From Burkholderia mayonis (GTDB taxonomy: Bacteria; Pseudomonadota; Gammaproteobacteria; Burkholderiales; Burkholderiaceae), in NCBI RefSeq assembly GCF_001523745.2, contig NZ_CP013386.1, positions 1,116,001 to 1,180,000 on the forward strand: 64,000 nt of DNA, given 5' to 3'. Below, one piece after another: positions 17,099 to 29,754 of this stretch. The stretch's first letter is position 1. Each line of letters starts with the position of its first letter. Below the pieces are notes generated by a model. The model did no database searches. It was not told the origin of the DNA and saw nothing but the letters and a program-made list of their open reading frames with translations. The translations under genes were made by a program, and so were the position numbers.

Positions 17099-17716
17099 TC
17101 AAGCGTGGCGATGCGTCGGCTGCTGCTGCGCGCCGGTGAAAGGCTCGGGCGTGCGGGTCGGATCGAAGTCCGCCCAGCGGCCCGACTGCCAGCGTCCCGT
17201 CGCGCGTTCGATGTCGCCGCCGCCTGCCTCGGCGAGCACGCGTGCGGCTTCGCCTTGCGAATCGGTCGTCACGTGCACGGCGACGAGCATTCCCGACGCG
17301 CGCATTTCGTGATGGATCGCTTCGTGCGTGATTTCGCGCACATGCGCGCGAGAGAAGTCTTCCTTGTGCATCATTCTGCCGAGCCATCCGCCGAGATACG
17401 CGCCGACGCCCGCGGCACAGATCGCGACGACGAGCGACGGGGTGGCGAGCGAAAACAGCGCGACGCCGAAGATGGCGCCGACGACGGCGCCGATCGTCGC
17501 GCCGTGCCTCGCATGCTGCATCGCGCCGATGGGAGGCGGCGCGGCCGGGGGGGCGGCGTGGGACGGGTATTCCGACGATTGCCGCGCGTGCTGGCCGCGC
17601 GGATTGACGAAGAACAGACTGACGTCCTCGGCGACGAAGCCGCTGTCGAGAAGCCGCTTGGCGGCGGCCTCGGCGGCGCGCTGCGTCGTGAAGCGTGCTG
17701 CGACGATCAATGACAT
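17099..17716 (-). CDS. Glycine-zipper membrane protein, 5' end reshaped by an IS element
   Basis: A 205-residue protein: an N-terminal soluble part (MSLIVAARFTTQRAAEAAAKRLLDSGF, a pattern seen in GsiB/YflT-like stress proteins), a Gly/Ala membrane stretch (about 68-118) and a C-terminal half with VHVTTDSQGEAARVLAEAGG. The start codon is the very edge of the 633-bp element at 17714-18346, which separates the gene from its former ribosome-binding site (GGAGAATGAA, now near 18347-18357). Only a weak AGGCG remains upstream, so expression may be reduced. Function unknown. Confidence 0.72.
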   Translation of the reverse strand: MSLIVAARFTTQRAAEAAAKRLLDSGFVAEDVSLFFVNPRGQHARQSSEYPSHAAPPAAPPPIGAMQHARHGATIGAVVGAIFGVALFSLATPSLVVAICAAGVGAYLGGWLGRMMHKEDFSRAHVREITHEAIHHEMRASGMLVAVHVTTDSQGEAARVLAEAGGGDIERATGRWQSGRWADFDPTRTPEPFTGAQQQPTHRHA

Positions 17717-18346
17717 GACGCCTATATGAACGCGTCCCGTTTGCCACAGTTTTCGTGTGTTTCTGACTGACAGGATGGGCAGCGGCTCTATATCCGGCCT
17801 TGTTGCAGCCGGTTCTGCCGCTGCGGGCCCCGATGAAATATGCTGACTCGCACCTCATTCTGCTGGCGAGCTGGAAGCTCTAGGCGCCATACAGGTTTAG
17901 CGAGTCCCGGTCCTACCTGGCTTGTCATCACACTCGATTGCTGCGCAATCTTTCGACGTTCACCCTGTGTTAAAGATTGACCTTCTACTTCGTGTGAGCC
18001 GGTCAAATCGGCTTCACGCTCACGTAGGCTTTGCAGTACGGCCGGTCATGAGCGGGCACCGCCGCACGCTTCCATCCCGATCAGACATGGCGCTCTGTTC
18101 GCAAAATGCTCCAGAAACTTCGCCCGCTTGATCGGCTTGTTCACGATCTCTCCGCTTGTCTGATCGACGTAATGCACCCGGAAAACCTGCTTGGCGATAT
18201 CTATGCCCACGGCCATACTGTTCATCGTGGATCCTCCGGTTGCCGGGAAATGCGTGCATTTTCCACCTGGGCACTTCGATGCCTTTGGCCCGTGAGGATC
18301 CTCCTTCTTCCTTCGCTCACTCGGTCACGGGGTGGGACGCGGTCAT
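17714..18346 (-). mobile_element. Internally deleted IS110-family (IS1111 group) element, copy 1
   Basis: A 633-bp element that matches 27637-28269 with three mismatches by eye. Reading the minus strand it begins ATGACCGCGTCCC and ends GGGACGCGTTCATATAGGCGTCATG. CGCGTCCC/GGGACGCG is a sub-terminal inverted repeat, as in IS1111-group elements, and an ATG is present at both edges. It keeps a noncoding left end of about 120 bp, the first 59 transposase codons, then after a deletion the last codons and a noncoding right end of about 280 bp where IS1111-type elements encode their bridge RNA. The autonomous transposase is lost. Confidence 0.82.
18046..18225 (-). pseudogene. IS1111-type transposase N-terminal fragment (copy 1)
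   Basis: Fifty-nine codons from MNSMAVGIDIAKQVF to MEACGGARS, preceded by GGAGG. The RuvC-like DEDD domain keeps its first Asp (GIDIAK) and Glu (MEACGG). A deletion then joins this, out of frame, to the last codons of the gene (RPYCKAYVSVKPI, stop). Confidence 0.85.
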
Positions 18347-18757
18347 TTCATTCTCCTGACGATGGCGTAAAGGCCATCCGAAGCCCGTCGCCCGAACGGC
18401 GGATGCGCTCGACTTGCGGCGCGGGCATGTGTTGGACAGACGAAGCGGGAAGGAGTGCTGGCGCGGATGGGGCGGGTGTGCGGATTTGGGGGAGGTTTGT
18501 CGCGGTGACCGGCGGGGAATAACGGGGCGGAAATGGGGTGTCGGTGGCCGGCGAGGGGCGGCTGGATCGTCGATGCGTTCGATCGGCTGGATTGTCCGAA
18601 TGGCCGAATCGACGGAACTGCGGCGTGCTGCGAAAGTGACGGGGTGCTGCGGCGGGATGCGTACGGTGGAGGATCGGCGAAATCGACCGGCCGGCGAAGC
18701 GATGCGCCACCGATCGCTCGCCAACCCGCGCGCGCTACTTCGGCGAGCGGCTTCGCG
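18347..18757. other. Former upstream region of the displaced gene
   Basis: About 410 bp between the IS copy and the MFS gene. On the minus strand it ends GTCAGGAGAATGAA directly at the IS edge, so it probably holds the original promoter of the gene at 17099-17716. No gene seen. Confidence 0.5.
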
Positions 18758-20131
18758 TCACCCCGCAGCGGCGGCTGTGTCGCGCTGCGCCTTGATTCGC
18801 ATCAGGCTGACGGCCGCCGCGACGGCGGCGAACGCGGTTGCGGCATAGAGTGCGATCGTCGGTCCATGTTGTGGCGCGACGCCGAAGATCAATGCGACGA
18901 GCGCGGCGCCGAGCGTCTGTCCGGTGAGCCGCGCGGTGCCGAGCATCCCGCTCGCGCCGCCCGTGCGCTCGCGCGGCGCGGACGACAGGATCGCGCGATT
19001 GTTCGGCGACTGGAAGAGTCCGAAGCCTGCGCCGCAGAGCGCCATCCGCCAGACGATGTCGACGGGCGTCGGATGTGCGCCGATCGTCGCAAGCGCGAGC
19101 AGGCCCGATGCGAAGAGCGCGAGGCCGATGCCGCCCAGCGCGCCCGCCGAATAGCGGTCCGATAGCACGCCCGCGAGCGGCGCGGCGATCACGATGACGA
19201 GCGGCCATGGCGTCATGTAGAGCCCGGTCTGCACCTGCGAGAAGTCGAGCGTGTTCTGCAGCCAGAATGGCAGCGCGACGAACGCGAGCATCTGCGACGT
19301 GAACGACGCGACCGATGTGCCGATCGACAGCGCGAAGATCGGGATGCGCAGCAGATCGACGGGCAGGAGCGGCGCAGGCTGCGTCAGTTGACGTTTGACG
19401 AAAAAGTAGCCGATGACGATGGCTGTGAGCGCGGTGGCCGCGGCGCTCGCGTGGTTTTCGCCATGCCCGAGTTCGTCGACGGAGACGATCAGCAGCCCGA
19501 ACACGCATGCGTTCATCACGGCGCCGATGAAGTCGTACGGCGCGTTGCGGCCCGGATTCACGGGCAGTGCGCGCAGGCCGCCGTACACGGCGGCGACGCC
19601 GATCGGCACGTTGATCGCGAAAAGCCACGGCCACGGCGCGACGGCGAGCACGGCGGACGCGACGGTCGGTCCGATTGCCGACGAAAGCGCGACGACCATC
19701 GCGTTGATCGCGACGCCGCGCCCGAGTTGCGACGACGGATAGATCATGCGGACGAGCGCGGTGTTGACGCTCATGATGCCGGCGGCGCCGAAGCCCTGAA
19801 TCACGCGCAGTGTCGTGAGCGTGGGCAACGTGCTCGACAGCGCGCAGCCGAACGACGCCGCTGTGAAGAGCGCGAGCCCCGCGATGTAGACGCGCCGATA
19901 GCCGATCCGGTCGCCGAGCGACGCGAGCGGCAGCAGCGAAATCGTGACGGCGAGCTGATACGCGTTGACGATCCAGATCGACGCGGCGTCGGATGCGCGC
20001 AGATCGCGGGCGATCGTGGGCAGCGCGACGTTCGCGATCGCGCCGTCGAGCACGGCGAGCGTGATGCCTAGCGCGACGCAGACGATCGCCCAGTAGCGTT
20101 GCGGGAGCGGCAGTCCGGAGTCGGCGTTCAT
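18758..20131 (-). CDS. MFS drug:proton antiporter, DHA2 (EmrB/QacA) family
   Basis: A 457-residue inner-membrane exporter with about 14 hydrophobic segments. Motif C-like and DHA2 features include LDGAIANVALPTIARDL (TM1, residues 28-44), WIVNAYQLAVTISLLPLASLGDRIGYRR (motif A) and RVIQGFGAAGIM. Likely exports toxic organic compounds; substrate unknown. Monocistronic, without an adjacent regulator. Confidence 0.9.
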   Translation of the reverse strand: MNADSGLPLPQRYWAIVCVALGITLAVLDGAIANVALPTIARDLRASDAASIWIVNAYQLAVTISLLPLASLGDRIGYRRVYIAGLALFTAASFGCALSSTLPTLTTLRVIQGFGAAGIMSVNTALVRMIYPSSQLGRGVAINAMVVALSSAIGPTVASAVLAVAPWPWLFAINVPIGVAAVYGGLRALPVNPGRNAPYDFIGAVMNACVFGLLIVSVDELGHGENHASAAATALTAIVIGYFFVKRQLTQPAPLLPVDLLRIPIFALSIGTSVASFTSQMLAFVALPFWLQNTLDFSQVQTGLYMTPWPLVIVIAAPLAGVLSDRYSAGALGGIGLALFASGLLALATIGAHPTPVDIVWRMALCGAGFGLFQSPNNRAILSSAPRERTGGASGMLGTARLTGQTLGAALVALIFGVAPQHGPTIALYAATAFAAVAAAVSLMRIKAQRDTAAAAG

Positions 20132-20251
20132 GGCGGAAGCGATGGCGAGGCGGCGAGGGTGCGGCGATTCGTTGCGAATGTAACCGCCGGCTTGCGCGCT
20201 GACGCGCCCGGCCGGCGGCGAAGGACCGGGCGGGCGCCCGGCCCGGACGGC

Positions 20252-20755
20252 TTACTTCAGTTCGTAGAGGCCGGTGTAAGTCGTCGAATCGAGTTCGTTC
20301 AGATGGATCATGAAGCGGGCGACAGCATTGGTTGTGTCCTTCGTGACGGGCACGGCGTCGACCTTCAGCGCGTGCAGGCGAAAGATGTAGCGGTGCGGCT
20401 TGTCGCCGCGCGGCGGCGCGGCGCCGCCGAAGCCTTCGTCGCCGTAGTCGTTGCGCACCTGCACGGCGCCCGCGGGCAGCGCGGCGCTGCCTGCTGCGCC
20501 CGCGTCTTGAGGCAGGGCCGCCGCGTCGACCGGGATGTTGACGACGGTCCAGTGCCAGAAGCCGCTGCCCGTCGGCGCGTCGGGATCGTAGACCGTCAGC
20601 GCGAGGCTCTTCGCATCGGCGGGCACGCCTTCCCAGTGGAGCGCGGGCGACCGGTTGCCGCCGTCGACGCCGAAGCCTTCGTGTTTGTATTCCTGCGCCT
20701 TCGGCATGAAGCCGTTGGCCGGAAACTCGTCAGTCCAAAGCCGGAAATCAGCCAC
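20252..20755 (-). CDS. YbhB/YbcL-type phosphatidylethanolamine-binding (PEBP/RKIP) protein
   Basis: A cytoplasmic 167-residue PEBP-fold protein. The signature DPDAPTGSGFWHWTVVNIP forms the ligand pocket, and GGAAPPRGDKPHRYIFRLHAL is the second conserved block. Bacterial members bind small anions or phospholipid heads; a role as a kinase inhibitor is only carried over from the eukaryotic name. The start has GGAGG just upstream. Confidence 0.9.
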   Translation of the reverse strand: MADFRLWTDEFPANGFMPKAQEYKHEGFGVDGGNRSPALHWEGVPADAKSLALTVYDPDAPTGSGFWHWTVVNIPVDAAALPQDAGAAGSAALPAGAVQVRNDYGDEGFGGAAPPRGDKPHRYIFRLHALKVDAVPVTKDTTNAVARFMIHLNELDSTTYTGLYELK

Positions 20756-21172
20756 GGGGGCCTCCTCGTGAAGTTCGACAGAAAGACGCCTGCGTCGCGG
20801 CGACGAATGCTCGCGAGCATCGGCGTGAGCCGGTCGAGTGTATCACCGGCGCTTGAATCATGAAGTCGGGCGGAACGAGGGGATAACAGCGCATTGCGGG
20901 CAGCGCCGTGCGTTGTGCAGGGGGGCGGCGAAGCGGTGCGGAATCGGCGAAGGCGTGGCCTCTCGAACTCGTGCGGGGGGCGGGCGTGCGCTTGGGATCA
21001 GACAATCAGGTGATCGGGACTCGGGAGACCATCGGTGAGGTGATCAAGCGTGATGTGATGTCGATCGGCCGCGACGGCCACTCGACAGGCCGATCGACAG
21101 GCCAGTCGACGCTTCGAGACGCGGCGAATCCGTTCGCCAATCGAGCGGAGGCGACACGCTCCGCCGTCGCCG
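20756..21172. other. Intergenic stretch without a recognised gene
   Basis: About 415 bp between two minus-strand genes. It contains the short direct repeats CGACAGGCC near 21084-21110 but no convincing gene or terminator. Confidence 0.5.
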
Positions 21173-21553
21173 TCATACCTCGAAATCGAGCCCGCCGATC
21201 AGCACGAGCGCATCGGCTTGCGTGCGCGAGCCGAAGTCGATGCCGCGCGCGTTTTCCCAGGCCGGCAGCTTGCGCCCCAACGCCGCGAGATAGCGCTCGA
21301 AGCGCGCGGGCCCGTCCGCCGCCATCAGATGCTCGATCTCGTCGGTGTCCCACGTGAGCGCGATGTCGAGCGGATGCGCGTAGCCGCGCGCGTGCTCGGC
21401 GGGCGGCGCGACGATCCGCACTTGTGTCGGATGTCCGTGCCCGCCGTAGCCGATGACCTCGGCGCTCGCCCTGTGACCCAGCAAGTCGGCGATTGCGCGC
21501 GCGATGCGCGGCGCGAACTCGGTATCGAATCGGCGGGCGGTGTCTGGGCTCAT
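21173..21553 (-). CDS. Hypothetical protein (DUF5594-like)
   Basis: A 126-residue soluble protein starting MSPDTARRFDTEFAPRIARAIADLLGHRASAEVIGYGGHGHPTQV and ending ALVLIGGLDFEV. GGAGA precedes the ATG at 21553. It looks like the small Burkholderia-restricted DUF5594 family from memory; I cannot confirm that. No function can be read from it. Confidence 0.75.
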   Translation of the reverse strand: MSPDTARRFDTEFAPRIARAIADLLGHRASAEVIGYGGHGHPTQVRIVAPPAEHARGYAHPLDIALTWDTDEIEHLMAADGPARFERYLAALGRKLPAWENARGIDFGSRTQADALVLIGGLDFEV

Positions 21554-21715
21554 CGAGGGCGTCTCCTTGGTGGTGCCGAAAATCGTAGCACGGCCCATGC
21601 GGCGCGCGAGCACGGATGTGACACGCGTAATTGCGCGTTACCGCTTGCTGCATCTATTACGGTCGACGGCGCCCACAATGGATTTCGTCATGCACCACGT
21701 TTGGCGGAGTCCAAC

Positions 21716-22084
21716 ATGAAGAAGATCGCGGCAGTTCTGGTGACGGCGGGCAGCCTCGCGCTTGCCGGCCCGGCCAGCGCACACGATCGCGGCGGCGATA
21801 TCGTCGGCGCGCTGATCGGCGGTGCGGTGCTGGGCGCGATCGTCACGTCCGCGCTGAACCCCGCGCCGGCCGTTGCGTATTCGGCGCCCGCATATCGGGC
21901 TCCCGCGTATCAGGTGCCTGCCTATCAGCCGGCGCAGTACCAACCCGCGCCTGCGTACGGCGGTCCGCCCGCGGGCTATTGCTACGACCAGTATCGACGC
22001 GCATACGTCGGTTGCGGCGCGCAAGCGTACGACGACGGCTACGGCGCGTACGGCTACGCGCAGCCGCAGCCTGCCGGGTGGTAA
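21716..22084 (+). CDS. Secreted Ala/Pro/Tyr-repeat protein
   Basis: A 122-residue exported protein. The signal peptide (residues 1-22, ending GPASAHD) leads to a glycine-rich hydrophobic segment (IVGALIGGAVLGAIVTSAL), then repeats of the type APAYxxPAYQ and a C-terminal YCYDQYRRAYVGCG part with two Cys. Ribosome-binding site GGAG. Similar Gly-zipper plus PAY-repeat proteins are common in Burkholderia; role unknown, probably envelope-associated. Confidence 0.8.
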   Translation: MKKIAAVLVTAGSLALAGPASAHDRGGDIVGALIGGAVLGAIVTSALNPAPAVAYSAPAYRAPAYQVPAYQPAQYQPAPAYGGPPAGYCYDQYRRAYVGCGAQAYDDGYGAYGYAQPQPAGW

Positions 22085-22480
22085 CGGGAACGACGTGCTG
22101 GGAGTGGGCGCGATGTGCGGCCCGGCGCACGCGATCCGGCGGCCGCATCCATGCGGTGTGGGTCGGATCGCACTGGTTCGATCGAGCGGATTTTGCGGCT
22201 GTCGGGACGCCTTGAATGCCGATGCCGATGCCGATCGAGCAGCGACGCGCTATCGAAGCGCGTGAAGTGCGTGAAGCGTTCCGCCTGAACGTTCTTCGAG
22301 AGGAGCGAGCAGGGCGGATGCCGCGATCGGCGGCGTCGGACGACGATGTCGCCGACGCACCGAGCCCTCTTCTTCAGGCAGGTCGATCGTCAGCGCGTCC
22401 GCTGCGATCGTCGCGGCGGTCCGCGACCGTAACCGCCGTGCGTTTCTTCGATACAACTCGTTGCAAATCGACGGCGAACC
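22085..22480. other. Intergenic stretch without a recognised gene
   Basis: About 395 bp between converging genes. A GATGCC/GCCGAT hexamer is repeated three times near 22215-22236. No gene seen. Confidence 0.5.
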
Positions 22481-22846
22481 TCAGTGCCGTCCGCCGTGGC
22501 CGCCGCCATTGCCGCCTCCGCCCGGCCAATCGTTGCCGCCGCGGTCGTTGCGGCCGCCTTGCCAGCCGTGGCCGCGCTCGCCACGCGATTGATCGCCGTG
22601 CCAATTGCCGCCGCCGCGCCCGCTGCCTCGCCAGCGGTCGCCGCCGCCCCGCCAATGGTCGCGGTCCCGCCATCCGCCGCCGCCCCAGATGTTCACCGTC
22701 CCGTACACGGGCGAATAACCCGGTCCGTACACATAACCGCCCGGATAGTACGGCTGCGCGTAGCCATAGCCGTAACCGTCGTCCGGCACGGCGACGCAGC
22801 CGGCAAGGAGCGCCGCGGCTCCGAGCGAAGCGACAAGTTTCAGCAT
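22481..22846 (-). CDS. Gly/Arg/His-rich putative lipoprotein
   Basis: A 121-residue lipoprotein. The lipobox LLAGC is at residues 13-17, followed by a Tyr/Gly segment (DDGYGYGYAQPYYPGGYVYGPG) and a low-complexity tail rich in Gly, Arg, Trp, Asp and His ending GGGNGGGHGGRH. The start at 22846 gives a standard lipoprotein signal. Function unknown; likely surface or periplasmic. Confidence 0.75.
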   Translation of the reverse strand: MLKLVASLGAAALLAGCVAVPDDGYGYGYAQPYYPGGYVYGPGYSPVYGTVNIWGGGGWRDRDHWRGGGDRWRGSGRGGGNWHGDQSRGERGHGWQGGRNDRGGNDWPGGGGNGGGHGGRH

Positions 22847-23018
22847 GGCATGCTCCCTTCTCCCTGTTTTCACTGCCGTTTCCATTGTGAAGCGCACAGA
22901 CCCGCTTAGTTCGAAGCGAATTGTGTCTGCACATTACAATCACGAAAGCAGTCGAAATGCGGAAGTTGGCTGTGCGTGGCGCTTCCGTCCATATTCAATC
23001 ACTCTTCAGGAGCACCGT

Positions 23019-23558
23019 ATGAAATCAGCCTCTCGCTTGGCCGCCTGGGCGGCATGCGCCGCATTCGTCGGCTTCTCCGGCGTCGCGGCGGCGGCGAGCG
23101 CGTCGACGCCCGCCGCGGGCGTCGACGCCGCGTCCGCGCCCAAGCCGTCAGCGGAAGACATCAAGATGTTCCCAGCCGCGCAGGCGGGGCAGAAGCGCAC
23201 GGTGATCGTGCTGCCCACCGAAAAGCTGGAGGACGACATTCGCGTCGAGCTGATCGTCGGCAAGGCGATCAAGGTCGACTGCAACCAGCACTGGTTCGGC
23301 GGCGATCTCAAGCATGAGACGGTGCAGGGCTGGGGCTATTCGTATTACGTGCTCGCCGATGCGAAGGGGCCGGCCGGCACGCTGATGGCGTGCCCGGGGC
23401 AGGGCGCGCAGGAGGCGTTCGTGCCCGTCCGCGGCAGCGGCTATCTGCTGCGCTACAACAGCCGCCTGCCGATCGTCGTGTACGTGCCGAACGGATTCGA
23501 TGTCCGCTACCGGTTGTGGTACGGGTCGAACGAAGTGGCGCGCGCGGTCGAGAAGTAA
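23019..23558 (+). CDS. eco: Ecotin, periplasmic serine-protease inhibitor
   Basis: A 179-residue exported ecotin. The signal peptide ends near AAAASA, then a Pro/Ala linker leads to the ecotin domain from about residue 45. The paired cysteines (C88 in VDCNQHW, C125 in LMACPG) match the ecotin disulfide that braces the reactive loop. Aligned from memory to E. coli ecotin (STMMACP), the P1 residue is Leu122 here rather than Met. LLRYNSRLPIVVYVPNGFDVRYRLW is the dimer-forming C-terminal strand. Ecotins inhibit trypsin-, chymotrypsin- and elastase-like proteases and protect bacteria from neutrophil elastase. Confidence 0.93.
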   Translation: MKSASRLAAWAACAAFVGFSGVAAAASASTPAAGVDAASAPKPSAEDIKMFPAAQAGQKRTVIVLPTEKLEDDIRVELIVGKAIKVDCNQHWFGGDLKHETVQGWGYSYYVLADAKGPAGTLMACPGQGAQEAFVPVRGSGYLLRYNSRLPIVVYVPNGFDVRYRLWYGSNEVARAVEK

Positions 23559-23653
23559 GCGGCGCTGCGCCTATCCGAAGCGATCCGGCTTGGCCACGCG
23601 GCGCAATGTGCGGGCGGCGTGCGGTGCCCCGGCGGCGGCCGCACGCCGGGGCG

Positions 23654-24802
23654 TCATGGCATCGAGCACGTGAGCCAGCGACGGATCTTCATCGCATCGG
23701 CGATATGGTCGCGCGGCCCCGGTGCGCCGAGCAGCACGATGTCGACGGGGCGCCCGCGCACCGCGTAGCGGAGCACCACGCAATGGCCGGCTTCGTTGAT
23801 GAAGCCGGTCTTCTGCAACATGATGCTCGAGTCGCCCGCGCGCACGAGCGCGTCCGAATTCACATACTGGAGCTGGCCGCGGCCGGGGAAGACGGTTTTC
23901 GACGTATCGGTCGAGAACGTCTTGATGCGCGGATAGCGGCTCGCCGCGGCGACGAGCCGCGACAGATCGTGCGCCGTCGACACGTTGCGAGGCGACAACC
24001 CGGTCGCGTTGACGAAATGCGTGTGCTTCATCCCGAGCGTGCGCGCCTTGCGGTTCATCGCGGCGACGAATGCCGGGCGGCCGCCCGCATAGTCGCGCGA
24101 CAGCGCCGCCGCCGCCCGGTTTTCCGACGACATCAGCGCGATGTGCAGCATGTCGCGGCGCGACAGCACCGAGCCGACCTTCAGGCGCGATCCCGTGAAT
24201 TTCTCGTAGTCGCGGTCCTGTGCGCTTACGCGCAGCTGCCGCGACAGCGGTGCGCGCGTGTCGAGCGCGACCATCGACGTCATCAGTTTCGTGACCGACG
24301 CGATCGGCACGACGCGATTCGCATTTTTCTCGATCAATACCGTGCCCGTTCTTTCGTCGACGACGTAGATCGCGCGTGAGCGCAGCAGGCTGCGCGACGC
24401 GCCGGTGTAGCCGCAGCTTGCGAGCAGTTGCGGCTTCGCGGCCGCAGTCGCGGCGACGACGTTGCGCGACGCGCGGTGGCGCTTGCGCGTCGGTTGATGC
24501 GGACGCGCGATCGAGCGCGTGCGATGTCTGATTTTTTTGTGGATCGCCGGGGACTTTTTCTTCACGTGCGGCCGATGATGTCGCACGCGCGCTGTGCGCT
24601 TGACGTGCTTCGCATGAACGCTGCGCGCGACGCGGCAGGCGTTGCCGTGCGCAGCCGACGTGCGTGCGCAGGTCTTTCCCGCCGCGTGCGCGGGTGGCGC
24701 GAACGCGACGCACAGAATGGACGCGATCCAGACGAGGCAAACGGCGGACAGCAGACGGACGACAAAGCGGCGGGAGCGTGGACGATGCGGCGTGGATGAC
24801 AT
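23654..24802 (-). CDS. D-Ala-D-Ala carboxypeptidase/endopeptidase, peptidase S11 (PbpG-like)
   Basis: A 382-residue periplasmic low-molecular-weight penicillin-binding protein. A signal anchor (about 14-41) is followed by an unusual, strongly basic His/Arg/Lys region (about 41-125), then the catalytic domain with SVTK (169-172, nucleophile Ser169), SEN (226-228) and KTG (331-333). It should cleave D-Ala cross-links of peptidoglycan, as PbpG (PBP7) does. It is transcribed towards ecotin; the two genes converge. Confidence 0.88.
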   Translation of the reverse strand: MSSTPHRPRSRRFVVRLLSAVCLVWIASILCVAFAPPAHAAGKTCARTSAAHGNACRVARSVHAKHVKRTARVRHHRPHVKKKSPAIHKKIRHRTRSIARPHQPTRKRHRASRNVVAATAAAKPQLLASCGYTGASRSLLRSRAIYVVDERTGTVLIEKNANRVVPIASVTKLMTSMVALDTRAPLSRQLRVSAQDRDYEKFTGSRLKVGSVLSRRDMLHIALMSSENRAAAALSRDYAGGRPAFVAAMNRKARTLGMKHTHFVNATGLSPRNVSTAHDLSRLVAAASRYPRIKTFSTDTSKTVFPGRGQLQYVNSDALVRAGDSSIMLQKTGFINEAGHCVVLRYAVRGRPVDIVLLGAPGPRDHIADAMKIRRWLTCSMP

Positions 24803-24974
24803 GGCGATCGAGCAAGGAACGGAATTCGGGCGAACGTATCGCGCGGTAGGACAGCGGACCGGCCGGGAAATTCGCGGCGGCGGCGATTTCGGTTGCTTCG
24901 GCGAGGGGCGTCGTGCGAGCGGGCGTCAAGGACGGCGAGTGCGCGGCGACGCCGTCGCGAGCGAAGCCGCGGCG

Positions 24975-25199
24975 TCACTCCCAGATGCTGCGCACGGCGA
25001 CCGCGACGATCACCGGCACCGAAAAGACGAGCGGGATCGCGAAGTACGGCGCTTCGCGATCGACGAGCCACGAGTAGATCACCCACGCTGCGCCGAGGCC
25101 GAACGTCACGAGGCCGACCAGCACGGCGAATAGGTTGAGCGCGAGGATCGACGGGCGGCTGCGTTTCTTGGCGGCGGGATCGGGAGGGCTGTCTTTCAT
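24975..25199 (-). CDS. Small two-TM membrane protein
   Basis: A 74-residue protein with two hydrophobic helices (NLFAVLVGLVTFGLGAAWVIY and FAIPLVFSVPVIVAVAV) after a short basic N-terminus. The start at 25199 is preferred over an in-frame ATG at 25271. Function unknown. Confidence 0.65.
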   Translation of the reverse strand: MKDSPPDPAAKKRSRPSILALNLFAVLVGLVTFGLGAAWVIYSWLVDREAPYFAIPLVFSVPVIVAVAVRSIWE

Positions 25200-25977
25200 C
25201 GCGATTCGGAAGGCTTCGTGGCTAGCCGCGCGCAGGCTGCTGGCGGCGGTCGGGCGGCGGACCGGCGGCAAACGCGGCGCGGGTCGCAGCAGACGGCGGC
25301 GTGCGGTTGTGCTCGTCGCCTCGCCGACGGTGTCCGGAACGGTGGATCGACATCAATCATCGCAGTAAAGCTTGCGGCCTTGCAAGGCATGCATCGCGCG
25401 TGCCAGGCGAAAGGAGATGTCCATGGCGATTCGGGCGATGTGCGATGCGGGCTCGCTCGCGGCATCGTCCGAAGGCCGCATTGCCGATGCAGTCTCGTCG
25501 GCTGCAATCGACGGCGCGGCATGACGCGCGTTCGACGTGCGCTCGTCATGCCGCCACGCGAATCGAACGCGCATCGCGCGCGTTCGGTCGCGAGTATGGC
25601 GATCGGCGCCGTGGTTTCCGTCAACTGTTCCACTTGGATTCGAGCTTCTGGACGCGTTCATATAGAGCGGCATGGCTTTCCGTTTGGCTCACGACTTTGT
25701 CGTTCACTTGATGTCGTCCTGGTAATGGCTTTAATTGTGCGACTGCCGGGTAATGTCGATTGGAGCAGCGATGGTCATGGCGCAAAAATATACGAATACC
25801 GGGCTTTCTGCGGGAGTCGAAGGGGGCGTGGAAACGGGCGTCGGCGGCGATACGGTGCGGGTGCTTATTGCGCGTTTTCGCATCGGAAGCGAATGGCCGG
25901 CCGCATCCGGGCAACGCGATCGGAACTTGCCGACGGGGCTTACGTCTCATTCGGAACGAATAGTTCCGGGGGAATTC
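25200..25977. other. Long stretch upstream of the Ivy-type gene with two marginal small frames
   Basis: About 780 bp without an established gene. Two very small frames deserve mention: 25423-25524 (+, 33 aa, AAGGAGA upstream) and 25621-25707 (-, 28 aa, GTG start, MNDKVVSQTESHAALYERVQ...). GC drops around 25600-25800. The 3' part likely holds the promoter for the lysozyme inhibitor. Confidence 0.4.
25621..25707 (-). CDS. Possible 28-residue small protein
   Basis: GTG-started frame preceded by CAGGA, reading NDKVVSQTESHAALYERVQKL and ending SKWNS. The composition looks like a real amphipathic helix rather than a GC-rich shadow, but length and start make it uncertain; it could be the tail of a decayed gene. 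Confidence 0.25.
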   Translation of the reverse strand: MNDKVVSQTESHAALYERVQKLESKWNS

Positions 25978-26454
25978 ATGATCTTTCATCTCTTTCGTTC
26001 GTTCGCATGGGCCACAGCGATGGCCGTATTGATCGCCGGCGTGGCGGGGCCGGCGGTCGCCGCCGACGAGCCCGCGCCGACTTTCTTCGAGGCCATTGCG
26101 CAAAGCGCGAACCGCATCGCTTGGAAGCGGATGCTCGCGAAGGAAACGCGCGTGCCGGGATGGCTCGCGAGCGAGAACCGGGTCAGTTCGCCGTACAAGC
26201 GCGAGCGGATCGACGGCGCGTCGTATCTGGTGGGGTGGATGTGCAAGCCGCACGATTGCGCGGCCAACCAGTTCTACGGCGTGATCGACGAAGACGCACA
26301 CCGGATGTGGGGGATGCTCGTGACGCTGCCCGAGATGCCGGGCGCCTACGACGCGCCGAGCAAGTATGCGAGTTTCCGCTGGTTCGGCAAGCCGGACGGA
26401 CGGATGAAGGCGTATCTGCAGGAGCAGTTGAAGCAGGATCCGAACTGGAAGTGA
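25978..26454 (+). CDS. Ivy-type inhibitor of vertebrate lysozyme
   Basis: A 158-residue exported protein. The signal peptide (about 1-29, ending GPAVAADE) is followed by a domain with the diagnostic CKPHDC loop (residues 89-94), which in Ivy plugs the lysozyme active site, plus LLVTLPEM-like and PSKYASFRWFGKPDGRMKAYLQ blocks typical of the family. GGGGG precedes the ATG at 25978. It should block C-type lysozyme and perhaps lytic transglycosylases in the periplasm. Ecotin and a PBP lie within 3 kb. Confidence 0.9.
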   Translation: MIFHLFRSFAWATAMAVLIAGVAGPAVAADEPAPTFFEAIAQSANRIAWKRMLAKETRVPGWLASENRVSSPYKRERIDGASYLVGWMCKPHDCAANQFYGVIDEDAHRMWGMLVTLPEMPGAYDAPSKYASFRWFGKPDGRMKAYLQEQLKQDPNWK

Positions 26455-26874
26455 CGTGCGCAATGCGGTTCAGACGTGCGTTCGCAGGTACTGCACACAT
26501 TTCGCGCGGAGCATCGGCGCTTCGATCGTCGTATTGTCGATGTCATGGCAGCAACGCTGAAATAGCGGAGAGGCCGAAAGGAGCACTCGTTCGTCGACGG
26601 CGTACATCGAGTGTGCAATTTCGCCGGACGCGCGTGCGAGTCAAATCCGGTCGCGCCAGTCGCATTGGGTCTGCAGCGACGACAGCCACGCGCCGGCCAC
26701 GCACGCATCGATTCGACCGGATAATCGGGGCGCAACCACCCGCGGGTCAGCGTCCGGGTGACAAGCTGGTTGATCACGAGAAAGCACAGTAAGTCGACGT
26801 ATCGGGTATGAATTGACGGGTGCGCGTCGTGTCCGGGTTACGCATCCGGCGCCCGGCCGGACGCCGCGGCGTCG
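26455..26874. other. Intergenic stretch without a recognised gene
   Basis: About 420 bp between the Ivy-type gene and rpsU. A stretch at 26560-26660 has a tRNA D-arm-like run (GGAGAGGCCGAAAGGAGC) but no cloverleaf that I could complete. Confidence 0.45.
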
Positions 26875-27087
26875 CTAGTACGGCTTCTTGGGCGGCATCG
26901 ACCGCTTGAGACGTGCTCGCTGGCGCGCGACCGCGCTGGCCTTCTTGCGTTTTCGCAGCGCAGTCGGTTTTTCATAGCTGCGGCGGTCGCGCAATTCGCG
27001 AATCAGGCCAATGCGTTCGATTTCTCTTCGAAAGCGCCTGAGCGTGATGTCGATGGGTTCGTTGAGCCTGGGCGTGATGGTCGTCAC
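26875..27087 (-). CDS. rpsU: Ribosomal protein S21 (bS21) paralogue
   Basis: A 70-residue bS21. From a GTG at 27087 it reads [28 protein letters not shown], with [22 protein letters not shown] and a basic end [10 protein letters not shown]. The GTG is chosen because AAGGAAA lies just upstream and it gives the exact family length; the upstream ATG at 27144 adds 19 residues unlike S21. bS21 sits at the mRNA exit of the 30S subunit and influences initiation. Its divergence ([11 protein letters not shown] for the usual NEPFEVALRRF) suggests one of several paralogues rather than the main copy. Confidence 0.9.
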
Positions 27088-27354
27088 AAGTTTCCTTGGC
27101 GTAAGTAGGAAGACGGGGCGAAGTGCGTTCATCGGGGGCGGCACATGATCTTGCCGGCCATGCCTCCGATTCGAGCTCCGAATGTCCGACGCCTAGCGAC
27201 AGCACCCGGACGGTGGCTTGCGATCGACCTGCGCGATTTCATTCCGCGGCACGAGACACGGAACTTTGTCGACGACCATTTCACCGGACGGGAATCGTCT
27301 AAGGTGCTCTCGTCGAATCGAGGTTTTCTGCGGAATGCGAAGAAGCGACGCCGG

Positions 27355-27639
27355 TCAGCCGGCTTCGGAAAACACCCAGTGCTCGCCTTCGTTCCGGTCG
27401 ATGATCTCCTCCGCGTACAGCAGCGATGCCCGTCGCGCGTCGCCGGCGTTGGAGAACGGCGAGCGGTCGGCGAGCTTGAAGATGCGGCCTTGGGAGGCGG
27501 CCGTTTGCTGCGAGCGCGGGCAGATTCGCACGGCGGCGTCGAAGCCCGCTTCGTAGTTGTGGCCGCGACCCTCTCCAGCGGGCACATGGGGATAGATGAG
27601 CGGATGAATTTCGAATCCGCGATACACATGCATGCTCAT
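27355..27639 (-). CDS. Small hypothetical protein, 5' end reshaped by an IS element
   Basis: A 94-residue soluble protein, MSMHVYRGFEIHPLIYPHVPAGEGRGHNYEAGFDAAVRIC..., ending EIIDRNEGEHWVFSEAG. No signal or membrane segment. As with the gene at 17099, its ATG is the edge of an IS1111 derivative, so the native GGAGAATTGAA ribosome-binding stretch now lies 630 bp away. Function unknown. Confidence 0.7.
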   Translation of the reverse strand: MSMHVYRGFEIHPLIYPHVPAGEGRGHNYEAGFDAAVRICPRSQQTAASQGRIFKLADRSPFSNAGDARRASLLYAEEIIDRNEGEHWVFSEAG

Positions 27640-28269
27640 GACGCCTATATGAACGCGTCCCGTTTGCCACAGTTTTCGTGTGTTTCTGACTGACAGGATG
27701 GGCAGCGGCTCTATATCCGGCCTTGTTGCAGCCGGTTCTGCCGCTGCGGGCCCCGATGAAATATGCTGACTCGCACCTCATTCTGCTGGCGAGCTGGAAG
27801 CTCTAGGCGCCATACAGGTTTAGCGAGTCCCGGTCCTACCTGGCTTGTCATCACACTCGATTGCTGCGCAACCTTTCGACGTTCACCCTGTGTTAAAGAT
27901 TGACCTTCTACTTCGTGTGAGCCGGTCAAATCGGCTTCACGCTCACGTAGGCTTTGCAGTACGGCCGGTCATGAGCGAGCACCGCCGCACGCTTCCATCC
28001 CGATCAGACATGGCGCTCTGTTCGCAAAATGCTCCAGAAACTTCGCCCGCTTGATCGGCTTGTTCACGATCTTTCCGCTTGTCTGATCGACGTAATGCAC
28101 CCGGAAAACCTGCTTGGCGATATCTATGCCCACGGCCATACTGTTCATCGTGGATCCTCCGGTTGCCGGGAAATGCGTGCATTTTCCACCTGGGCACTTC
28201 GATGCCTTTGGCCCGTGAGGATCCTCCTTCTTCCTTCGCTCACTCGGTCACGGGGTGGGACGCGGTCAT
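27637..28269 (-). mobile_element. Internally deleted IS110-family (IS1111 group) element, copy 2
   Basis: 633 bp, same length, orientation, ends and deletion junction as copy 1, with three substitutions seen by eye (in the right-end noncoding part and the transposase fragment). The minus-strand upstream flank is ATCGCAAGGAGAATTGAA, close to ATCGTCAGGAGAATGAA at copy 1. Identical deletion junctions show that both come from one already defective element. Confidence 0.82.
27969..28148 (-). pseudogene. IS1111-type transposase N-terminal fragment (copy 2)
   Basis: The same 59-codon fragment as in copy 1, again ending at a TGA created by the deletion junction. Confidence 0.85.
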
Positions 28270-28834
28270 TTCAATTCTCCTTGCGATCGTGAGCAGCGGA
28301 TCGCGATGATGGGATGGCTTCGGCTTCGGCTTCGGCTTCGCGCGCGTGCGAAGCATCGAGCGTCCAGTGCAGCGCCGCTGAGGGCGTCGAATGCGTGAAG
28401 AGGCAGCGACGCACGAGGGGAAGGGTGCGATGGACAATCTGAGCGTTTGTGCAAGGAACGCAAGCAGATTGATTCATCATACGCGCGCTGGGTGAGTTGT
28501 CCAGAAAAAACGAGCGGCGGCGGGCGTGTCGTCGGCTCGCAGCGTTTTGTTCCGGCTGTCTCTTTTCGAAAACGAATTGGATCGAAGGCACACTGTCTCG
28601 TTACGCCTCTCGCTATGACGATCACGGACGACGTTCGGTCGTCGGCCTTCGTGTTTCATGAGCAGACACGTCGATATGACGTGATCGCCATCGTCCGCAA
28701 CCGATCGGATATCTTAGCTTTCCCGACAGAATTCACGAATCAAGGTGGGGGGGTGATTTCGGTTTGGCTCTCGAGTATTGTGCCGCCAACAATGCCCTCA
28801 TAGATGGGGGGCTTGAATGCTGTCGGTGCCATTC
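28270..28834. other. Lower-GC stretch between the IS1111 derivative and the IS3 element
   Basis: About 565 bp. It contains a GGCTTC hexamer repeat (28316-28339) and a marginal plus-strand frame from ATG 28615 (MTITDDVRSSAFVFHEQTRRYDVIAIV..., 62 codons) without a ribosome-binding site that runs into the IS3 left end. Possibly the remains of a gene interrupted by the IS. Confidence 0.45.
28316..28339. repeat. Simple sequence repeat, four GGCTTC units
   Basis: Four exact tandem copies of GGCTTC. Such short hexamer repeats are typical variable loci in the B. pseudomallei group and may differ between strains. Confidence 0.8.
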
Positions 28835-28873
28835 TGAGGTTCACTCGTTTTTTCGCCTTCCAACGGTCCCGAG

Positions 28874-29754
28874 TTATGCAGCGGCGTCCTTGGTCTGCTG
28901 AGCTTTGATCCAGTCTCGAAGGAACTGCTCCGGAGAAACAAAGCCGAGCGACGAATGACGACGACTGCGGTTGTAAAACACTTCGATGTATTCGAACAGA
29001 TCGGCCTTCGCGTCCTGATGCGCGTGGCGTGAACCCGTTCGTTCTTCAGGCTGTTGAAGAAGCTTTCCGTCGGCGCGTTGTCCCAACAATTTCCCTTGCG
29101 GCTCGTCGAGCAACGCATGCCGTAGGCGGCCAGTTTGCGCTGGAACTCGTGACTCGCATACTGGTTGCCGCGGTCGGAGTGGCACAGTGCGCCCGGCGCG
29201 GGTCGGCGGCGAAACCAAGCCATCGTCAGCGCGTCCGTCACGAGATCCGCCGTCATGCGCGGCTTGATCGACCAGCCCACCACCTCCCGGTTGAACAGAT
29301 CGAGCACCGCGGCCACGTACAGCCAGCCCTCGTCGGTCCAGATGTACGTGATGTCCGAACTGAACACCTGATTCGGCTCGGCGGACATGAACTCGCGATT
29401 CAACAGATTCGGCGCTACCGGCAGTTTGTGCTTCGAATCGGTCGTCATCCGTTAGCGGCGTTTGTGTCGGGCTCGGATACCGTTCTCACGCATCAGCCAT
29501 TCCACACGCTCCTTGCTGGCCGGAAAGCCGCGCTCGCGGATTTCCTCGGTCATGCGCGGCGAACCGTATGCACCCTTGAACTCGGCGTGCACCGTCCGGA
29601 TCATCGTCAGCAGTTGCGTGTCCGTCAGTCGCGTTCGTCCCGGCGTACCGCCGCGTTTCCACGCGCGATAGCTGCTCACGCTGACCGATAGCACGCAGCA
29701 CAGCGACCGCAGCGGATATTGCCCGACCTGCCGGTCGACCCAGGCATACCTCAC
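28874..29754 (-). pseudogene. IS3-family transposase OrfB (DDE), nonsense and frameshift mutations
   Basis: Read from a GTG at 29754. The HTH_21 region (TVHAEFKGAYGSPRMTEEIRERGF) ends at an in-frame TAA (29452-29454) after ARHKRR. The frame then continues with the integrase core: SSDITYIW (Asp), [11 protein letters not shown] (Asp) and [16 protein letters not shown] (Glu), so the DDE triad is present. Near 29030 a frameshift moves the C-terminus ([26 protein letters not shown]) to another frame. Two lesions make it inactive. Confidence 0.85.

Follow-up and report, generated by a model that had tools for sequence, protein, structure and literature searches.

An IS1111-type lineage predicted to be guided between Shine-Dalgarno sequences and start codons, with two transposase-deleted members in Burkholderia mayonis

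How do two copies of an insertion sequence (IS) that has lost most of its transposase gene come to lie directly before the start codons of two different genes? The question is raised by a stretch of 64,000 nucleotides of Burkholderia mayonis (contig NZ_CP013386.1, positions 1,116,001 to 1,180,000), here called the window, from a genome of 6.59 Mb in two contigs. The copies are very probably transposase-deleted members of the IS1111 type, likely sited by a predicted seekRNA in which one loop corresponds to AGGAG and the other pairs through the start codon. What the sequences show is that the copies sit between AGGAG and ATG, that relatives have empty sites, that one target base is repeated and that the loops of a guide-like region change with the flanks across lineages.

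The copies lie on the minus strand at 17714-18346 and 27637-28269 by the marks of an earlier sequence-only reading, each 633 bp between those marks, in the same orientation and 9,923 bp apart. The ends were redefined from 36 sites with both flanks readable and the empty site in relative L078 (copy 1), and from comparison with relatives (copy 2), which gives the following features.

17723..18352, minus strand: short IS1111-type element copy 1, 630 bp, with extensions AATGAA (left, 6 bp) and ATA (right, 3 bp)
27646..28276, minus strand: short IS1111-type element copy 2, 631 bp, with extensions AATTGAA (left, 7 bp) and ATA
18353..18357, minus strand: left half-target of copy 1, Shine-Dalgarno sequence AGGAG
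28277..28281, minus strand: left half-target of copy 2, AGGAG
17714..17722, minus strand: right half-target of copy 1, repeated G, spacer GCGTC and ATG
27637..27645, minus strand: right half-target of copy 2, repeated G, spacer GCGTC and ATG
18046..18225, minus strand: transposase remnant of copy 1, 59 codons and stop
27969-28148, minus strand: transposase remnant of copy 2, placed by offset from copy 1

As the sequence-only reading had claimed, the two copies are equal in length and share one deletion, their flanks differ beyond a short motif, and transposase codons 1-59 are kept, joined to the tail of the transposase gene. They differ at only three element positions (197, 292 and 398; 99.5% identity). 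Judged by eye against the full-length relative L037, the changed base is in copy 1 at 292 and 398 and in copy 2 at 197; each copy thus has private changes, and the two must have changed independently after separating. The deletion junction falls inside element positions 284-291, a stretch common to both halves of full-length relatives. What is retained is the left end with the 59 codons and the entire right part, including the non-coding region. A 28-base junction pattern, allowed up to three mismatches in 65 genomes of the genus, matched in the window's own genome only, and the same deletion was found at no third place among those genomes. The nearest full-length relatives measure about 1,430 bp, encode a transposase of 339 amino acids and are 88-89% identical across the shared parts. 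Other shortened relatives have unlike deletions (L055, 734 bp; L139, 498 bp; L056, 893 bp, between marks), and L056 is without the guide region; a second copy was established for none of these three.

The copies are, on the evidence of their sequence, deletion derivatives of an IS1111-type element. In relatives a 13-bp subterminal repeat, ATGAACGCGTCCC, stands at both ends, and the window copies carry ATGACCGCGTCCC (12 of 13 bases). All sites were aligned on this repeat, with the right end defined at ATA. The transposases of full-length relatives L040 and L043 contain PF01548 and PF02371; the 59-codon remnant of the window copies alone matched no family. In L040 the transposase gene ends at 1678 and the element extends about 280 bases further, a long downstream non-coding region, and a simple scan of L040 from 300 to 2100 found no promoter. 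Burkholderia, Paraburkholderia, Caballeronia, Pandoraea and Cupriavidus all have the lineage, and Xenorhabdus has relatives of it.

The element proper runs from AAT(T)GAA to ATA, its left extension being 7 bp at 18 and 6 bp at 18 of the 36 two-flank sites, a count to which six plasmid copies were added by hand. One target base is repeated at 34 of these sites and two bases at none. At both window copies the repeated base is one G. At nine sites it is not G on both sides; even there it is equal on both sides at seven (the misses being L139 and L148), and the base therefore follows the target and not the element. For the same reason the base after ATA was dropped as a candidate for element sequence. 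A single base equal on both sides fits a shared core base; strictly, it is a one-base repeat. The sequence-only reading had placed an ATG at both element ends. The right ATG is the host start codon; the left one belongs to the element, where it begins the 13-bp repeat, and the ATG pair was therefore rejected as a target duplication.

Where the lineage inserts was examined at 81 unique sites, which remained from 100 end matches after removal of 17 duplicates and two with short right flanks; several sites share one genome and are not fully independent. An ATG lies 6 to 10 nucleotides beyond the right end at 68 of the 81, whereas random flanks of equal composition gave a mean of 9.6 and a maximum of 20 (2,000 draws). 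Distances of 6, 7, 8, 9 and 10 bases occur at 31, 19, 12, 5 and 1 sites. From that ATG a frame is open for at least 60 codons at 53 of 68 sites, compared with 42 of 140 for out-of-frame ATGs in the same regions; 13 sites have no ATG at 6 to 10 bases, and 15 have only a short frame. On the other side, 22 of the 36 sites with a readable left flank have GGAG at its end, 17 of them AGGAG. Two plasmid copies end directly before the independently annotated starts of parB (Pandoraea oxalativorans) and a CsbD gene (P. faecigallinarum); in B. ubonensis no gene is annotated at the ATG next to the element. The sequence-only reading had proposed that a non-autonomous element seeks a Shine-Dalgarno-plus-ATG sequence. 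The target is borne out by flanks and empty sites, but it is a trait of the whole full-length lineage and not of the short form. In the 64-kb window AGGAG followed after 5 to 9 nucleotides by ATG occurs 16 times against 3.9 expected, and two of the 16 were created by the insertions.

Empty sites, which the sequence-only reading had suggested seeking in relatives, were found for the loci of both host genes and for those of L048 and L043. The host genes are as follows.

17099..17716, minus strand: host gene behind copy 1 (gene 1), 205 amino acids, glycine-zipper family PF13488
27355..27639, minus strand: host gene behind copy 2 (gene 2), 94 amino acids, conserved in the genus

For gene 2 no Pfam family was found, the frame scanned being 27129-27629 and not 27355..27639. 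Gene 1 has only one near relative, L078 (62-65% protein identity), which reads GCCATCGCCAGGAG GGTGCC ATGTCGTTGATC, compared with GCCATCGTCAGGAG-element-GGCGTC ATGTCATTGATC in the window; its empty site is thus GCCAGGAG-GGTGCC-ATG where the window has AGGAG-element-GGCGTC-ATG. AGGAG precedes the start in all 14 gene-1 relatives listed, and for gene 2 all 19 unoccupied relatives read AGGAG, six nucleotides, ATG. The clearest pairs are two others, in which the flanks bordering the junction are identical at every base. Six relatives (L218-L223) have the empty site CATCGAACAGGAG-ATCACG-ATG and the occupied L048 has CATCGAACAGGAG-element-GATCACG-ATG; L163 and L165 have CCCGTGGAG-GTGACCC-ATG and the occupied L043 has CCCGTGGAG-element-GGTGACCC-ATG. 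At ohr (L037) and catC (L040) relatives also carry the motif, with AAGGAG at catC in 18 of 19, L235 differing. The one-base rule implies a spacing of five in the window's genome; in relatives of gene 1, gene 2 and ohr it is six. As the empty sites consist of AGGAG, a spacer and ATG, the element splits a Shine-Dalgarno sequence from its start codon. The elements L043 (G024) and L062 (G009) lie in two species before the same gene, at the same base; the gene starts with MLIGVPKEIKNHE, and from this start it is likely an alanine dehydrogenase.

A candidate for the guide lies downstream of the transposase gene. An alignment of 29 sequences reveals three shared features, namely an outer stem, a CCT/AGG stem and an inner hairpin, along with two hypervariable loops. 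In the consensus structure 98.6% of 435 cells are paired, and sliding the partner destroys the pairing. Changes on both sides occur in 6 of 15 pairs, compared with 2.2 in shuffles (none of 500 as high). Unaided, RNAalifold returned nearly the same structure, with 14 pairs, seven of them with both-side changes, and folding of single sequences gave the stems for L037 and L057. No Rfam family matched the element. The corresponding features of the window copies are these.

17845..17906, minus strand: predicted seekRNA core of copy 1 (outer stem, CCT/AGG stem, inner hairpin, two guide loops), from the alignment with covariation
27768..27829, minus strand: predicted seekRNA core of copy 2, by the offset of 9923
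17880..17891, minus strand: predicted 5' guide loop of copy 1, TATGGCGCCTAG, whose first nine bases can pair with GGCGTCATG (seven Watson-Crick pairs and two wobbles)
27803..27814, minus strand: predicted 5' guide loop of copy 2, with the sequence of copy 1
17860..17864, minus strand: predicted 3' guide loop of copy 1, AGCAG, one mismatch to AGGAG
27783..27787, minus strand: predicted 3' guide loop of copy 2, AGCAG

Guides could be read at 42 of the 81 sites (27 distinct 5' loops), those of L052-L054 being set by hand and the rest lying at contig ends or unparsed. Because sites from one genome are not fully independent, the tests were averaged per distinct guide. The mean longest Watson-Crick run between 5' loop and right flank was 6.83 with a flank's own loop and 3.44 with swapped loops (27 distinct loops; none of 10,000 permutations as high). 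The 3' loop equals the left flank at 4.30 of 5 bases, compared with 2.36 when swapped (22 distinct loops; none of 20,000 permutations); here five plasmid copies were added by hand and L280-L282 were unused. Twelve 3' loops do not end in GGAG, one of them the AGCAG of the window, and for these the values were 4.25 of 5 and 1.69 (none of 20,000). Re-targeting is seen in the pairs of loop and left flank TCGGGGC/TTAGGGC (L058), CTAAGTA/CATAGTA (L057) and CTAACAG/CAAACAG (L283). Lineages with other 3' (left-flank) loops sit at other kinds of site. Among 27 sites of the Shine-Dalgarno class, 21 have a frame of at least 60 codons, four a short one and two no ATG, compared with 4, 8 and 4 among the 16 of the other class. 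The difference in long frames (21/27 against 4/16) indicates that it is the 3' loop that decides landing at gene starts.

When 30 of these loops were compared, those of L140 and L280 having been left out, none but the window's 5' loop could pair along the whole nine-base stretch GGCGTCATG that forms the right flank of each copy. Together with a 3' loop only one mismatch away from AGGAG, this suggests that the guide of the short copies fits, or recently fitted, both sites. The distance between the two half-sites seems not to be fixed. One B. ambifaria loop, AATTGCGTAACG, serves sites reading ACGCAATG, CGCAATG and TGCAATG with ATG 6, 7, 6 and 8 bases from the junction, and elements of the L037 type in the window's genome lie 6, 8 and 10 bases from ATG, though only GCATG pairs there. 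These few sites point to a target of two half-sites with a flexible spacer.

Three observations concern guides of other kinds. L111, L124 and L136 (Pararobbsia, Caballeronia and Paraburkholderia) have the 5' loop AAGGCTCATACG and all lie before GATGAGCCT; their register differs, with ATG directly after the junction, and the site looks like one conserved gene. L092, L093, L100, L104 and L281 (Cupriavidus and Paraburkholderia) are flanked on the right by GATTACCCC or something close to it and on the left, at sites where this can be read, by GGACG; there is no start codon at the flank in this lineage, which has another target. L280 (Burkholderia glumae plasmid) and L282 (Cupriavidus pinatubonensis plasmid) lie directly behind IS5-family transposase genes, which are perhaps targeted.

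A mechanism can be proposed on this basis. The predicted RNA would be made and bound by the transposase and would pick the site as seekRNAs do in tested IS1111 elements, its 3' loop matching the left half-site AGGAG and its 5' loop the right half-site of spacer and ATG. The short form would then be moved by transposase supplied from elsewhere, carrying its own guide. As judged from sequence and covariation, the matches follow the order described for IS1111 seekRNAs (PMC11187229), in which the top strand is matched 5' of where the bottom strand is.

Several results weigh against this mechanism. The matching of guides to flanks is all computed, from sequence alone; the own loop is strictly best for only 20 of the 27, and L044, L047, L053 and L148 fit their own guides poorly (runs of 3 to 4). 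The window's 5' loop needs its two wobbles, its Watson-Crick run being just 4, and its 3' loop has the same mismatch to AGGAG in both copies. As to the RNA, further pair types are not above chance (12 compared with 11.2 in shuffles; 141 of 500), and neither the window copy nor L040 gave the consensus fold when folded alone (z-scores -0.30 to -1.17). A left extension of 6 bp in copy 1 and 7 bp in copy 2 is unexplained by a simple second jump, and the window's genome yielded no uninterrupted transposase belonging to the same subfamily.

Three other accounts of the position of the copies were weighed against guided siting. The motif might be the element's own end, with GGAGAATTGAA belonging to the IS, as its great constancy in the AGGAG lineages would allow, but this is refuted by empty sites in which AGGAG is present with the flanks joined; in addition, elements with other 3' loops have other bases there, as the 12 loops not ending in GGAG testify, and the idea is barely credible. 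Gene-internal insertions are often lost in general, and selection might therefore have removed insertions elsewhere and left those before start codons without any targeting. Such survival would not yield loops that change along with the flanks, nor does it sit well with the single orientation at all sites aligned or with the harm that insertion before a start codon would itself do, and we regard it as highly improbable. Duplication of a segment carrying the element is suggested by the common orientation of copies just 9,923 bp apart. The sequence-only reading had argued against such a block copy, and rightly: the flanks are unrelated beyond the motif (no shared flank at a minimum length of 20) and the two host genes differ, making the probability of this account practically negligible.

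How the second short copy arose is less clear-cut. A jump of the short form itself is plausible, and it is mechanistically possible since a short ISEc11 has been shown experimentally to move with transposase and RNA supplied in trans (PMC11187229). In the window's genome the nearest transposase genes are interrupted, three others, which are uninterrupted, reach only 40% identity, and two further copies of the L037 type are right-end remnants 98-99% identical to L037. As no uninterrupted gene of the same subfamily was found there, the transposase for such a jump would have been supplied by a different element or by a copy that has since been lost or damaged. This negative finding is one reason to consider gene conversion, in which two full-length elements with the same guide had inserted, one lost its middle and recombination between direct repeats 9.9 kb apart copied the deletion to the other. 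The 99.5% identity of the copies agrees with this, and slight support comes from the left extensions of 6 and 7 bp, which would fit outermost bases inherited from two earlier insertions. The private changes (292 and 398 in one copy, 197 in the other) and the absence of the junction from any third place in the 65 genomes neither favour nor exclude it, and the demonstrated movement of short ISEc11 in trans (PMC11187229) counts against the need for it. Gene conversion is possible but somewhat doubtful.

For the host, guided insertion at this site would have direct consequences. The AGGAG of the host now lies 6 or 7 bases ahead of an ATG that belongs to the element and from which a frame of 6 to 9 codons opens in 15 of the 16 AGGAG-type copies listed, L037 being the exception. 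The transposase start has its own GGAGG and lies about 120 bases further on. In the window the short frames are as follows.

18317..18346, minus strand: nine-codon frame at the left end of the element, now behind host AGGAG, copy 1
28240-28269, minus strand: nine-codon frame of copy 2, placed by offset

Host initiation would likely be diverted to such a frame, and the host gene would be left without a Shine-Dalgarno sequence of its own. Landing in sense behind host promoters would probably bring transcription through the transposase gene and guide region. If the guide reads these signals, many sites per genome would be open to the element, always in sense and behind a host promoter, and the target gene would be switched off or retuned at its start.

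Elsewhere in the window, a frame of 216 amino acids with an integrase core domain (PF00665) lies near copy 2, at 28798-29448, and is likely an IS remnant. Rfam matched only tRNAs in the window. A phage origin was rejected, as there was no match in the phage collection.

The systems closest to this lineage are the IS1111 elements with studied seekRNAs, namely ISEc11, ISKpn4, ISPa11 and ISPst6 (Siddiquee et al. 2024, PMC11187229). In the available text of that paper they share with it a DEDD transposase of about 339 amino acids, a long downstream non-coding region, 13-bp subterminal inverted repeats, a left extension of 7 or 6 bp and a right one of 3 bp, the order of the seekRNA matches and natural re-targeting through loop change. 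The lineage also resembles the bridge-RNA IS110 elements such as IS621 (PMC11208160, as far as available) in having a DEDD recombinase with a guide RNA, here a predicted one, and with the RNA carried in the right end in IS1111 members. Only the C-terminal half of its transposase aligns with the chains of the solved IS621 and ISCro4 structures.

The target is different. Known IS1111 targets are rare special sequences: those described in the accessible part of PMC11187229 are a short linear site, attC sites, repetitive extragenic palindromic (REP) sequences and a site in IS3 genes, whereas here a Shine-Dalgarno sequence and a start codon would be addressed. The words Shine, Burkholderia and MITE (miniature inverted-repeat transposable element) are absent from that part, and 'ribosome' and 'start codon' appear in other senses; Shine, ribosome, start codon and Burkholderia are absent from the main text of PMC11208160 as available, and the available parts of PMC9208149 and PMC5101355 do not treat Shine-Dalgarno targeting. 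Within the open-licence literature no paper joining IS110/IS1111 or seekRNA with such targeting was found, although an ISfinder entry with such a target may exist. In ISEc11 the top- and bottom-strand matches overlap in the target (PMC11187229, available text), whereas here they appear to be separated, the ATG distance varying (6, 7, 6 and 8 nucleotides) with one guide.

Non-autonomous derivatives moved in trans form a general class in which the transposase gene is mostly deleted and both ends are kept. The window element differs from these in having retained its own predicted guide, one that fits both sites. Tentatively, the lineage may stand for an RNA-guided class that uses the translation start as its address, tolerates flexible spacing, uses the host's ribosome-binding site for its own short frame and has guide-carrying passengers that lack a transposase. 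It would then offer a natural example of an RNA-guided target that has two parts and tolerates different spacings, and the comparison with swapped guides makes the guide rule testable. Judged by its sequences and set beside the known elements, it is an IS1111 lineage whose class of target is new.

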